A DNA stretch of 35,541 nt from Ramlibacter sp. (GTDB lineage Bacteria; Pseudomonadota; Gammaproteobacteria; Burkholderiales; Burkholderiaceae_C). This document shows, in pieces, positions 15,680-21,672 of the stretch (within the stretch, counting starts at the first letter, position 1; every line of letters begins with the position of its first letter). Position numbers and translations under genes: made by a program. The stretch is taken from the NCBI GenBank assembly GCA_022844525.1, contig JALHLO010000008.1:1-35541 (forward strand), written 5' to 3'. A model generated the notes under the pieces. It was given only the letters and a program-made list of their open reading frames with translations. It was not told the DNA's origin and did no database searches.

Positions 15680-17230
15680 CTAGACGTTGCCCCCACCCTG
15701 CGCCGCCACCCGTTCCACCTTGCTGCGCAGCTTGTTCAACGCGCTCAGGTAGGCCTTGGCCGATGCCACCACGATGTCGGGATCCGCGCCCACCCCGTTG
15801 ACCACCCGGCCGGAGTTCTGCAGGCGCACCGTCACCTCGCCCTGGCTCTCGGTGGAGCCGCTGATGGCATTCACCGAATAGAGCACCATTTCGGCGCCGC
15901 TGCGGACCTGGCTTTCGATCGCCTTGAGCGAGGCGTCCACCGGGCCGTTGCCGTCCGACTGGCCCCGCACCTCCTTGCCCTGGGCGGTGAAGACGACCTC
16001 CGCATGGGGCCGCTCCCCCGTCTCGCTGTGTTGCCGAAGCGAGACAAGCCGGTAGCTTTCCTCTTCCTTGGTTACAGCCTCGTCGCTCACCAGCGCCAGG
16101 ATGTCCTCGTCGAAGATCTCGCTCTTGCGGTCGGCCAGCTCCTTGAACTTGGCGAAGGCCGCGTTGATCTCGGCTTCGCTGTCGAGCGCCACGCCGAGCT
16201 CCTGCAGGCGTTGCTTGAAGGCATTGCGGCCCGACAGCTTGCCCAGCACGATCTTGTTGGCCGACCAGCCCACGTCTTCCGCCCGCATGATCTCGTAGGT
16301 GTCGCGCGCCTTGAGCACGCCGTCCTGGTGGATGCCGCTGGCGTGGGCGAAGGCGTTGGCGCCGACCACCGCCTTGTTCGGCTGGACCACGAAGCCGGTG
16401 GTCTGGCTGACCATGCGGCTGGCCGCCACGATGTGGCGGGTGTCGATGTTCACGTCCAGGCCGAAGTAGTCCCTGCGCGTCTTCACGGCCATGACGACCT
16501 CTTCCAGCGAGCAGTTGCCGGCGCGCTCGCCCAGGCCGTTGATGGTGCACTCGACCTGGCGCGCGCCGCCGAGCTTCACGCCGGCCAGCGAGTTGGCCAC
16601 GGCCATGCCGAGGTCGTTGTGGCAGTGCACGGACCAGACCGCCTTGTCGGAGTTCGGGATGCGCTCGCGCAGCGTGCGGATGAATTCGCCGTACAGCTCC
16701 GGGACGGCATAGCCGACCGTATCGGGCACGTTGATGGTGGTGGCACCCTCCGCGATCACCGCCTCCAGCACGCGGCAGAGGAAGTCCAGCTCGCTGCGGT
16801 AGCCGTCCTCGGGGGAGAACTCGATGTCGCCGCACAGGTTGCGGGCGAAGCGCACCGACTGCTTCGCCTGCTCCAGCACCTGCTCGGGCGTCATCCGCAG
16901 CTTCTTTTCCATGTGCAGCGGCGAGGTCGCGATGAAGGTGTGGATGCGCGCCCGCTGCGCGCCCTTGAGCGCCTCGGCGGCGCGCGAGATGTCGCGGTCG
17001 TTGGCGCGCGAGAGCGAGCAGATGGTCGATTCCCGGATCGCGTTGGCGATCGCCTGCACGGCCTCGAAGTCGCCGTTGGAGCTGGCGGCGAAGCCGGCCT
17101 CGATCACGTCGACGCGCAGCCGCTCGAGCTGCCGCGCGATGCGCAGCTTCTCGTCCTTGGTCATGGAGGCGCCGGGGGACTGCTCGCCGTCGCGCAGCGT
17201 GGTGTCGAAAATGATCAGTTGGTCTGCCAT
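15680..17230 (-). CDS. leuA: 2-isopropylmalate synthase, LeuA type 1
   Basis: [77 protein letters not shown]-terminal regulatory domain. Confidence 0.95.
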
Positions 17231-18915
17231 GTGGATTCCTCTTGTTCGCAAGCGAGGCCGGCGCGCTGCAGGCCCGAGACGATCGCCTTGAGCGACGCCG
17301 ACACGATGTTCGCGTCCATGCCGACGCCGAACAGCGTCCGCTCGCCGACCCGCAGCTCCAGGTAGGCCACGGCGCGCGCGTCGGCACCGGATGCGATTGC
17401 ATGCTCATGGTAGTCGAGCACGCGGATGGTTTGGCCGGTGGCCTGGCCCAGGCCTTCCACGAAGGCCGCGATCGGGCCGTTGCCCGCGCCCCGCACCGCG
17501 ATGTCGCGGCTGCCGGCGCGCACCTCGGCCGCGAGGGTCACCAGGTCACCGGCGGGGCCCACGCCCGATTCGAGCACCTGGTGCGCCACCGAGGCCTGCC
17601 CCAGGCGGTATTCGCTCTCGAACAGCGCCCACAGGTCGCGCGCGCTCAGCTCCTTGCCGCTGGCGTCCATCACGCCCTGCACCACCCGGCTGAACTCGAT
17701 CTGCAGCCGGCGCGGCAGTTCCAGCCCGTACTCGGTCTCCAGCAGGTAGGAAATGCCGCCCTTGCCCGACTGGCTGTTCACGCGGATCACCGCTTCGTAG
17801 CTGCGGCCCAGGTCCTTGGGGTCGATCGGCAGGTAGGGCATGTCCCAGGGCTCGCCTTCCTTGCGGGCCGCGAAGGCCTTGCGGATCGCGTCCTGGTGCG
17901 AACCGGAAAAGGAGGTGTAGACCAGGTCGCCCACGTACGGGTGGCGCGGATGCACCGGCAGCTGGTTGCAGTGCTCCACGGTGCGGCGGATCTCGTCGAT
18001 GTCCGAGAAGTCCAGCCCCGGGTCCACGCCCTGGCTGTACAGGTTGAGCGCCACGTTCACGAGGTCGAGGTTGCCGGTGCGCTCGCCGTTGCCGAACAGG
18101 CAGCCTTCCAGCCGGTCCGCGCCGGCCATCACCGCGAACTCGCCGGCGGCGGTGCCGGTGCCGCGGTCGTTGTGAGGATGCACCGACAGCACGATGGAAT
18201 CGCGCCGCGCCAGGTGGCGGTGCATCCACTCGATCATGTCCGCGAAGATGTTGGGCGTGGAGTGCTCCACCGTGGACGGCAGGTTGACGATGCACTTGCG
18301 CGCCGGCGTGGGTTGCCACACCTCGGTCACCGCGTCGACCACGCGCTTGGCGAAAGCCAGCTCGGTGCCCGAGAACATCTCCGGCGAGTACTGGAACACC
18401 CAGTCGGTCTCCGGCTGCCGCGCCGCCAGCTCCTGGAACAGGCGGGCCTGCGAGCTCGCGAGGTTCACGATGCCGTCCTCGTCGAGGCCCAGCACCACCT
18501 TGCGCATCACCGGCGCGGTGGCGTTGTACAGGTGGACGATCACGCGGCGCGCGCCCCGCATCGATTCGAAGGTGCGGCGGATCAGTTCCTCGCGCGCCTG
18601 CGTCAACACCTGGATGGTGACGTCGCGCGGGATCAGGTCCTCCTCGATCAGCTTGCGCACGAAGTCGAACTCCACCTGCGACGCCGAGGGGAAGCCGACT
18701 TCGATCTCCTTGAAGCCGATCGCCACCAGCGCCTCGAACATGCGCAGCTTGCGCGGGATGTCCATGGGCTCGATCAGGGCCTGGTTGCCGTCGCGCAGGT
18801 CCACGCTGCACCACACGGGAGGCTTCGTGGTCACCGCGTCCGGCCAGGTGCGGTCGGCCAGGCGCACCGGCGCGAATTGGCGGTACTTGGTGGCGGGGTT
18901 CTTCAACATCGGCAT
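17215..18915 (-). CDS. leuA: 2-isopropylmalate synthase, LeuA type 2
   Basis: 566 aa; [80 protein letters not shown]. Confidence 0.95.
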
Positions 18916-18950
18916 GGTCGGGTCTCTCGAGGGGGTGAACCAGCAGCCCC

Positions 18951-18988
18951 AAATGCAAACGGCCCGCTGCTGGTGGCAAACGGGCCGT
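18951..18988 (-). terminator. candidate attenuator (terminator hairpin) upstream of leuA type 2
   Basis: Minus-strand RNA ACGGCCCG-TTTGCCACCAGCAG-CGGGCCGT followed by TTGCATTT; 8-bp GC-rich stem directly downstream of the Leu-rich leader ORF. Confidence 0.65.
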
Positions 18989-19011
18989 GATACGGGAATG
19001 CTGCGCGCGCG

Positions 19012-19065
19012 CTACCGTCTCCGCCCGTGGGGGGATAGCAGTAGGGCCAGCGCGATGCGGTTCAT
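19012..19065 (-). CDS. leucine leader peptide MNRIALALLLSPHGRRR
   Basis: ATG AAC CGC ATC GCG CTG GCC CTA CTG CTA TCC CCC CAC GGG CGG AGA CGG TAG: 4 Leu codons in 17, three consecutive, two CTA. Followed by a terminator hairpin and leuA. Confidence 0.75.
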   Translation of the reverse strand: MNRIALALLLSPHGRRR

Positions 19066-19112
19066 GCGGTCGACTCTAGCACAGGGGCCGATCCGGGGAG
19101 GATCAGGGTTTT

Positions 19113-19925
19113 CTATCGATGCAATCCGGATTCCTCCGGCTCGTCGGTGGAGGTGCTGATCATGCTCGCGCGCTGCCCGCGCGCCTTGCGCCAGAAGTAG
19201 ACGCCGTAGCCGGACAGCCCGTAGATCACGAAGATGGCGAACAGCACCACCGGCGGGTCGATGTTGATGACGGCGATGCCCAGCGCGATCAGCACGATCA
19301 CGGCGAAGGGCACGCTCTTCTTCATCTGGACGTCCTTGAAGCTGTAGAAGGGCACGTTGGTGACCATGGTCAGCCCCGCGTACAGCGCCAGCGCGAACAT
19401 GACCCAGGTGACGTCGTAGGGACGCACGCGGTAGTCCGTCATCAGCCAGATGAAGCCGGCCACCAGCGCCGCGGCCGCCGGCGACGGCAGGCCCTGGAAG
19501 TAGCGCTTGTCGACCACGCCGGTGTTCACGTTGAAGCGCGCCAGGCGCAGCGCGGCGCAGGCGCAGTAGACGAAGGCGGCGATCCAGCCCCAGCGGCCCA
19601 GGCCCTTGAGGGCCCACTCGTAGGCGATCAGCGCCGGGGCGGCGCCGAAGGACACCATGTCGGAGAGCGAATCCATCTGCTCGCCGAAGGCGCTCTGCGT
19701 GTTGGTCATGCGCGCCACGCGCCCGTCCAGGCTGTCCAGCACCATGGCGCTGAAGACGCCGACGGCGGCCAGGTCGAAGCGGCCGTTCATCGCCATGACG
19801 ATGGAATAGAAGCCGCCGAACAGCGCGGCCAGCGTGAAGAGGTTGGGCAGGATGTAGATGCCCTTGCGCCGCTTGCGCACCACCACTCCCTCGGGGGGCA
19901 TCTCTTCTTCGTGTCCGTCGTGCAT
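19113..19925 (-). CDS. pssA: CDP-diacylglycerol-serine O-phosphatidyltransferase
   Basis: KGIYILPNLFTLAALFGGFYSIVMA, DSLDGRVARMTNTQSAFGEQMDSLSDMVSFGAAPAL (CDP-alcohol phosphotransferase signature). Confidence 0.95.
   Translation of the reverse strand: MHDGHEEEMPPEGVVVRKRRKGIYILPNLFTLAALFGGFYSIVMAMNGRFDLAAVGVFSAMVLDSLDGRVARMTNTQSAFGEQMDSLSDMVSFGAAPALIAYEWALKGLGRWGWIAAFVYCACAALRLARFNVNTGVVDKRYFQGLPSPAAAALVAGFIWLMTDYRVRPYDVTWVMFALALYAGLTMVTNVPFYSFKDVQMKKSVPFAVIVLIALGIAVINIDPPVVLFAIFVIYGLSGYGVYFWRKARGQRASMISTSTDEPEESGLHR

Positions 19926-20004: not shown

Positions 20005-21672
<1,668 letters not shown>

Follow-up and report, generated by a model that had tools for sequence, protein, structure and literature searches.

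A close described counterpart of the RNA analysed here is the enterobacterial leu attenuator (leuL; Rfam Leu_leader, RF00512), which likewise places before leuA a short leucine-rich peptide that includes CUA codons, a 1:2 hairpin and an intrinsic terminator, and whose antiterminator has a predicted equivalent here. Both theory and experiment single out CUA as the most sensitive codon of the leu attenuator in enteric bacteria (PMC1183508). Attenuation by the ribosome can also act on a leaderless RNA: the rnTrpL (trpL) leader RNA of Sinorhizobium meliloti starts at the AUG of its leader peptide (PMC7298713). Leaders of branched-chain operons have been reported from Corynebacterium as well, where the ilvB leader transcript of C. 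diphtheriae is leaderless and a leu leader, MNRANLLLLRRGGSQA, was reported upstream of leuA (PMC5784534).

The leuA leader of Ramlibacter sp. and its relatives shares features with each of these systems and differs from all of them. Its peptide has 17 residues, whereas the enterobacterial leader has 28 (the latter per PMC6123439). Unlike leuL, it has its own promoter next to pssA, an extended -10 element that abuts the AUG with no Shine-Dalgarno sequence, and it has an additional covarying helix that joins the terminator loop to the 5' untranslated region of leuA. With rnTrpL it shares the probable leaderless attenuation, although the amino acid there is tryptophan and here leucine; the likeness is one of architecture, without a demonstrated sequence relation, and the helix between loop and downstream segment found here is not described for rnTrpL. 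The Corynebacterium ilvB and leu leaders also encode leader peptides of branched-chain operons, but they belong to another phylum and another RNA, and their peptides are alike by composition only.

We analysed a stretch of 35,541 nucleotides (the window), in which the element lies on the minus strand between pssA, a gene of the CDP-alcohol phosphatidyltransferase family (19113..19925 (-); Pfam PF01066), and leuA type 2, the 2-isopropylmalate synthase gene that it would regulate (17215..18915 (-); Pfam HMGL-like, IPMS_D2, LeuA_dimer). A second leuA-type gene, of type 1 (15680..17251 (-); Pfam HMGL-like and LeuA_dimer), overlaps the end of leuA type 2. Reading from pssA to leuA, the order is: promoter TGTGCTAGAGT (19083-19073), 7 bases, the ATG and leader MNRIALALLLSPHGRRR with its stop codon (19065-19012), 23 bases, the hairpin ACGGCCCG-loop-CGGGCCGT (18988-18959), a U-rich stretch to 18951, GGG, the segment GCTGCTGGT (18947-18939), 23 bases, and the leuA ATG. 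A first-pass annotation of this DNA had described the ORF with its Leu codons as well as the hairpin, and its description is exact against the minus-strand sequence. Its interval omitted the promoter at one side and the third conserved segment (18947-18939) at the other, and it mentioned neither the helix made by the terminator loop nor the probable leaderless start. All 200 shuffles of the attenuator region of the window fold less well than the region itself (z -2.7). Elsewhere in the same operon, the Rfam ilvH RNA (RF02993, 88.2 bits) was found at 21567-21634 (-), between the gene for the acetolactate synthase large subunit and ilvH, so this operon region would hold at least two cis-regulatory RNAs. 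The ilvH RNA is also a cis-regulatory RNA of branched-chain biosynthesis, but it has a separate covariance model with no match to the leuA leader.

For comparison we took the leuA upstream regions of relatives, aligned 50 of them (alignment A1) and built a covariance model, R1. R1 found matches in 315 of 401 genomes of the family, representing 118 of 141 genera and nearly always one per genome; under strict filters, 86 of the 401 genomes had no R1 match. In a class-wide sample of 369 genomes, the only ones to match were the three that belong to the family. Directly downstream of the element lay leuA type 2 or type 1 in all 93 further loci aligned to R1, and one genome in which the leuA paralogues are located apart carried two elements, so that each paralogue, type 2 as well as type 1, has its own ahead of it. 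The exact leader-core pattern was present in 104 stretches of named genomes; among the 80 of these 104 matches that were listed, the sources were genera such as Ramlibacter, Polaromonas, Acidovorax, Rhodoferax and Caenimonas, and MAGs under the labels Comamonadaceae, Burkholderiales, betaproteobacterium or proteobacterium. Conservation in hundreds of genomes places the element beyond chance. The same leader-terminator design was seen in the loci of a further family (f10) and in two likely relatives of them.

The leader ORF (19012..19065 (-)) spans 17 codons and a stop (ATG AAC CGC ATC GCG CTG GCC CTA CTG CTA TCC CCC CAC GGG CGG AGA CGG TAG), keeps its frame among relatives, is not preceded by a Shine-Dalgarno sequence and probably heads a leaderless mRNA. 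Its control codons, CTG-GCC-CTA-CTG-CTA (19036..19050 (-)), include four Leu codons: CTG at 19050-19048, CTA at 19044-19042, CTG at 19041-19039 and CTA at 19038-19036. The first-pass annotation had expected CTA to be rare, and indeed none of the 236 Leu codons in seven neighbouring genes of the window is CTA. Every one of 131 leaders compared has at least three Leu codons, always with CTA, and their Leu codons sum to CTA 303, CTG 211, CTC 26, TTG 22 and CTT 16, a CTA share of 52%. Among the 74 aligned leaders of 17 codons, the stop is TAG throughout, codons 8-10 stay CTA-CTG-CTA, and in unpaired stretches of the RNA the third positions are variable (the seventh codon, for Ala, is GCC, GCA, GCG or GCT); differences in length between aligned leaders are mostly in whole codons. 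A second class of leaders, such as MNTFAVTALLLLVEPRVR (L182, stop TGA) and MKTWAVTALLLLGEPRVR (L199), retains the CTA/Leu run while most of the remaining peptide and nucleotides differ. The pairing partner of the stop codon has also changed in this class, and the retention of the CTA run despite that change argues against CTA being kept by RNA pairing only. Judged from its sequence, the leader ORF is very probably translated and would count leucine.

Three further observations concern the leader. The second class was seen at 17 loci, where the peptides end in (E/D/V)PRVR, SRAR or similar and the stop is TGA or TAG. The leader peptide, padded with three alanines, had no match in a Pfam scan. 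At and just past the leader stop, in the window (19014-19001 (-)) and in relatives, the sequence TAGCGC(G/A)CGCG is strongly conserved, non-coding and outside the main helices.

Beginning 23 nt past the leader stop in the window, the terminator hairpin (18959..18988 (-)) pairs ACGGCCCG (18988-18981) with CGGGCCGT (18966-18959) across a large loop and is followed by a U-rich tract, UUUGCAUUU (18951..18959 (-)). The comparison across the family that had been proposed with the first description supports it: both the stem of the terminator and the Leu codons are kept, the stem being paired in 99.8% of cells in the 50 sequences of A1, and one pair, the second, changes on both sides (C-G in 39, A-U in 11). 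At 12-16 nt, and exactly 13 in 97 of 131 sequences, the loop is large for a terminator. The U-tract of the window is weak; that of most relatives is UUUUUCUUU or similar, with a median of 8 T per 12 nt over 131 sequences. Given the weak U-tract and the large loop, termination in the window may be leaky. The leader region shows two features of the class of ribosome-mediated transcription attenuators: a short ORF with codons for the end product (131 leaders, leuA downstream in 93 of 93 loci) and an intrinsic terminator between this ORF and leuA.

Upstream of the terminator, segments 1 and 2 form a hairpin (CUACUG...CGGUAG with an inner C-rich/G-rich stem; 19012..19044 (-); -13.3 kcal/mol), the putative anti-antiterminator, which is paired in 92.7% of cells and shows one-sided changes only. 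By complementarity and folding, segment 2, ACGGGC (19023..19028 (-)), and segment 3, GCCCGT (18980..18985 (-)), are the predicted 5' and 3' halves of an antiterminator, the latter overlapping the 5' arm of the terminator. They are complementary in 98.3% of cells, and five of the six pairs are invariant (core CGGGC:GCCCG), an invariance that gives no covariation support. When folded without the terminator 3' arm, 128 of 129 sequences had the 2:3 pairing predicted at a probability of at least 0.5; once the arm was present, the terminator dominated. The invariance of 2:3 is consistent with attenuation but is not proof alone; helix 1:2 and the terminator could by themselves explain it. Of the two alternative pairings that the first-pass annotation had pointed out, the one between leader ACGGGC and the 5' arm GCCCGT is this conserved pairing. 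The other, between the Leu-codon segment and the terminator 3' arm (GGCCC-CTGCT/AGCAG-GGGCC), is present in the window; 87% of cells pair, but as many as 20 of the 50 sequences disrupt it without compensation, and we rejected it.

Just past pssA stands an extended -10 promoter, TGTG-C-TAGAGT (19073..19083 (-)), with no conserved -35 and with its hexamer ending 7 nt before the leader ATG. The family motif is TGTGnTAnAnT. Of 131 leaders, 123 have a TAnnnT hexamer whose end lies 6-9 nt ahead of the leader ATG (at 7 nt in 70 leaders, 6 nt in 32, 8 nt in 17 and 9 nt in 4); random control positions give 1.4%. TGn precedes the hexamer in 121 of these leaders, and an SD-like sequence precedes the leader ATG in 0 of 131. 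The position profile aligned on the hexamer gave no -35 signal; conservation begins at TGTGn. Bacterial RNA polymerase usually starts ~6-7 nt past the -10 hexamer, so with this spacing the transcript should begin at the leader AUG. Both marks of a leaderless-attenuator architecture, a promoter spaced to place the start at the AUG and the absence of a Shine-Dalgarno sequence, are found here, and on this basis we think it quite likely that the leader mRNA is leaderless and starts at its AUG. Leaderless genes with a promoter motif directly upstream of the start are known in Burkholderia cenocepacia (PMC4603805).

Because a conserved promoter belongs to the element itself and lies between pssA and leuA, the leu part of the operon appears to have its own switch, as had been proposed at the outset. 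The gene pssA is upstream in 121 of 130 orthologous loci and in most of them ends ~27 nt before the promoter. In RNA that reads through from ilv-pssA, the leader would lie internally, without a Shine-Dalgarno sequence; it would then be untranslated and terminate by default, and the switch would so be insulated from the upstream operon.

Beyond these parts, the terminator loop has a partner of its own. Segment 4, ACCAGCAGC (18966..18974 (-)), consists of terminator-loop sequence and the first base of the 3' arm; segment 5, GCTGCTGGT (18939..18947 (-)), is complementary to it and lies 23 nt before the leuA ATG. In A1, which was aligned by sequence only, 80% of the cells of helix 4:5 are paired and three pairs change on both sides, while slid registers reach at most 54%. 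The partner was picked by best complementarity in our other analyses (131-sequence, permutation, pair-type and tree), which favours pairing; the A1 alignment is free of that bias. With the partner so chosen, the loop segment finds one within ~110 nt better than shuffles do (p <=0.05) in 99 of 131 sequences, and when the loop segments are reassigned at random among the sequences, the mean pairing score falls from 19.8 to 15.6, with 0 of 1000 permutations above 16.5. The pairs are of several types: A-T 58, C-G 32, T-A 6 and T-G 7 at position 4, A-T 97 and G-C 7 at position 7, and G-C 56 and A-T 42 at position 8. The protein tree of the downstream LeuA type 2 requires no fewer than 13 changes of the loop base at position 4, 8 at position 8 and 4 at position 2. 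Independent comparisons on supported branches at these three positions were nearly all complementary, though too few for a significant sign test per position; at position 1, comparisons on the LeuA tree were not mainly complementary. To our knowledge, no conserved, covarying helix between a terminator loop and the downstream UTR has been described for any amino-acid attenuator.

Loss of helix 4:5 in the leuA1-containing clade was considered and proved wrong: segment 5 is displaced ~14 nt downstream there, so that the partner lies ~23 nt past the terminator, compared with ~10 elsewhere, and still ~25-30 nt before the start codon. The leuA1 start as mapped is ~21 nt too early, the reference ORF having an upstream in-frame start. 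Part of the family has leuA type 1 immediately behind the leader (ten loci and others), and several of these have the terminator AAGGCCCG...CGGGCCTT and segment 5 ~14 nt further downstream. The second leader class has a longer loop helix, GCAACCTGCAG:CTGCAGGTTGC.

Helix 4:5 is weak or absent in about a quarter of sequences, including some in which leuA comes right after the U-tract. As it would also form only after the termination decision, it is not essential to the basic switch. Helix 4:5 and the terminator stem have a single base in common, so that the two can coexist as an H-type pseudoknot; scored as separate hairpins, the terminator (8 pairs) has -14.0 and helix 4:5 -15.5 kcal/mol. We rejected a second intrinsic terminator as the general role of helix 4:5: a U-run directly follows segment 5 in some relatives, but not in the window or most others. 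The comparative evidence makes it very likely that helix 4:5 is an RNA structure, and our confidence in any particular function for it is low. Segment 5 is transcribed only once termination has been decided, so any action of the helix must fall in read-through RNA, through the structure of the 5' end, stability or leuA translation. One tentative proposal, which we doubt more than we credit, is a second control layer, in which the loop pairs just upstream of the leuA ribosome-binding region, a pseudoknot or competing hairpin sets leuA translation or mRNA stability, and the free loop of the terminated RNA is available in trans on leuA mRNA.

Two other accounts of segments 4 and 5 leave the attenuator in place. 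The terminated leader RNA might act in trans as a small RNA, its exposed 13-nt loop pairing either with segment 5 in the full-length leuA mRNA or with targets elsewhere. In favour of this are the unusual size and constancy of the loop (13 nt in the majority counted above), the absence of its partner from the terminated RNA, and the terminated leaderless trp leader rnTrpL of S. meliloti, which does act in trans (PMC7298713); yet pairing in cis within the same RNA should outcompete it, and we judge this account improbable. About equally unlikely is that the two segments form a DNA inverted repeat bound by a regulator. Half-sites near the leuA start that change together would suit such an operator, but they drift through many types (ACCAGCAGC, ACCAGCAAC, ACCAGCGAC, ATCCGCAAC, AACTGCAAC, GCAACCTGCAG) with G-U intermediates, at spacings of ~6 to 25 nt, a drift and variability that an RNA helix is expected to tolerate and a protein operator is not.

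Taking the leader as a whole, the family-wide comparison supports the reading first given to the leader and terminator before leuA, and we consider it very probable that the element controls leuA by ribosome-mediated transcription attenuation, with charged leucyl-tRNA as the signal sensed. We infer that it would work as follows. RNA polymerase would begin at the extended -10 promoter just past pssA, placing the 5' end of the transcript at, or within 1-2 nt of, the leader AUG, and the leader would be translated as a leaderless message. With ample leucine, the ribosome would clear CUG-GCC-CUA-CUG-CUA, reach the stop and cover segment 2; the terminator, ACGGCCCG/CGGGCCGU, would form and transcription would end before leuA. 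When charged tRNA-Leu is scarce, the ribosome would stall on the Leu codons, segment 2 (ACGGGC) would pair with the 5' arm (GCCCGU) and leuA would be transcribed. In the read-through RNA, the loop segment ACCAGCAGC would pair with GCUGCUGGU ~25 nt before the leuA start, forming either a hairpin of its own or, together with the terminator stem, a pseudoknot, and helix 4:5 would probably shape or protect the 5' region of leuA mRNA.

Sensing of leucine or a related metabolite by the RNA itself, riboswitch-like or through a protein, would make translation of the ORF unimportant. The strong nucleotide conservation (CGGGCGG, TAGCGCrCGCG) and the covarying extra helix, more than many attenuators show, would fit such sensing. 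Against it, codon-level conservation, length changes of codon size and the preference for CTA point to translation, the second leader class keeps the Leu run while changing most other peptide and nucleotide sequence, and no Rfam riboswitch or other family matches the leader, all of which leaves it very unlikely. Equally remote is the idea that the hairpin merely terminates the upstream ilv-pssA transcript, beside a constitutive leuA promoter and an incidental small ORF: an intrinsic terminator between two units is ordinary and pssA almost always lies upstream, close to the promoter, but this terminator is downstream of the leuA promoter and so would block leuA itself, every genome keeps the frame of the ORF and its rare Leu codons, and the element persists where pssA is not detected upstream (at three loci, for example).

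Several more distant families of the order carry, ahead of leuA, another Leu-rich ORF (for example MVSQQHGQSGLFLVSNLLTGLLLRPART or MEQLFIATLLSVSLLLSGLLRLVR), often with a TATAGT -10-like sequence ~7 nt before the ATG, and no obvious U-tract or intrinsic terminator was seen beside these ORFs. Such ORFs, with endings LLLRPART, LLAGLLRLAR or similar, were noted at ten loci, many of them with a -10-like box that precedes the ATG by 6-8 nt, and some with a hairpin near the leuA start (e.g. CCGGCCGCAAAATGCGGCC in L112). This hairpin suggests another mode of attenuation in some distant families, and a 5'-terminal leucine leader before leuA may be older than the present attenuator.

Searched against Rfam 15 with cmscan, at gathering thresholds and at E up to 10, the leuA leader matched neither Leu_leader RF00512 nor any other family. 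By its sequence we regard it as a bona fide leucine attenuator RNA that is uncatalogued in Rfam 15, resembling the enterobacterial one in its predicted working and standing outside that Rfam family. The openly searchable literature contained no description of a leuA leader of Betaproteobacteria/Burkholderiales; an earlier one may stand in subscription papers, the main comparative study of proteobacterial attenuators (2004) among them.

These results point to a leucine switch that is spread across the family (Ramlibacter, Polaromonas, Acidovorax, Rhodoferax, Caenimonas and relatives) and is missing from current libraries of RNA families. Its layout is minimal, with promoter, 5'-terminal AUG and attenuator in ~110 nt. 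This layout would restrict antitermination to transcripts from this promoter, insulating leuA from ilv-pssA read-through. The covarying loop helix, in turn, offers a testable case of an attenuator terminator that may have a further role in the read-through mRNA.
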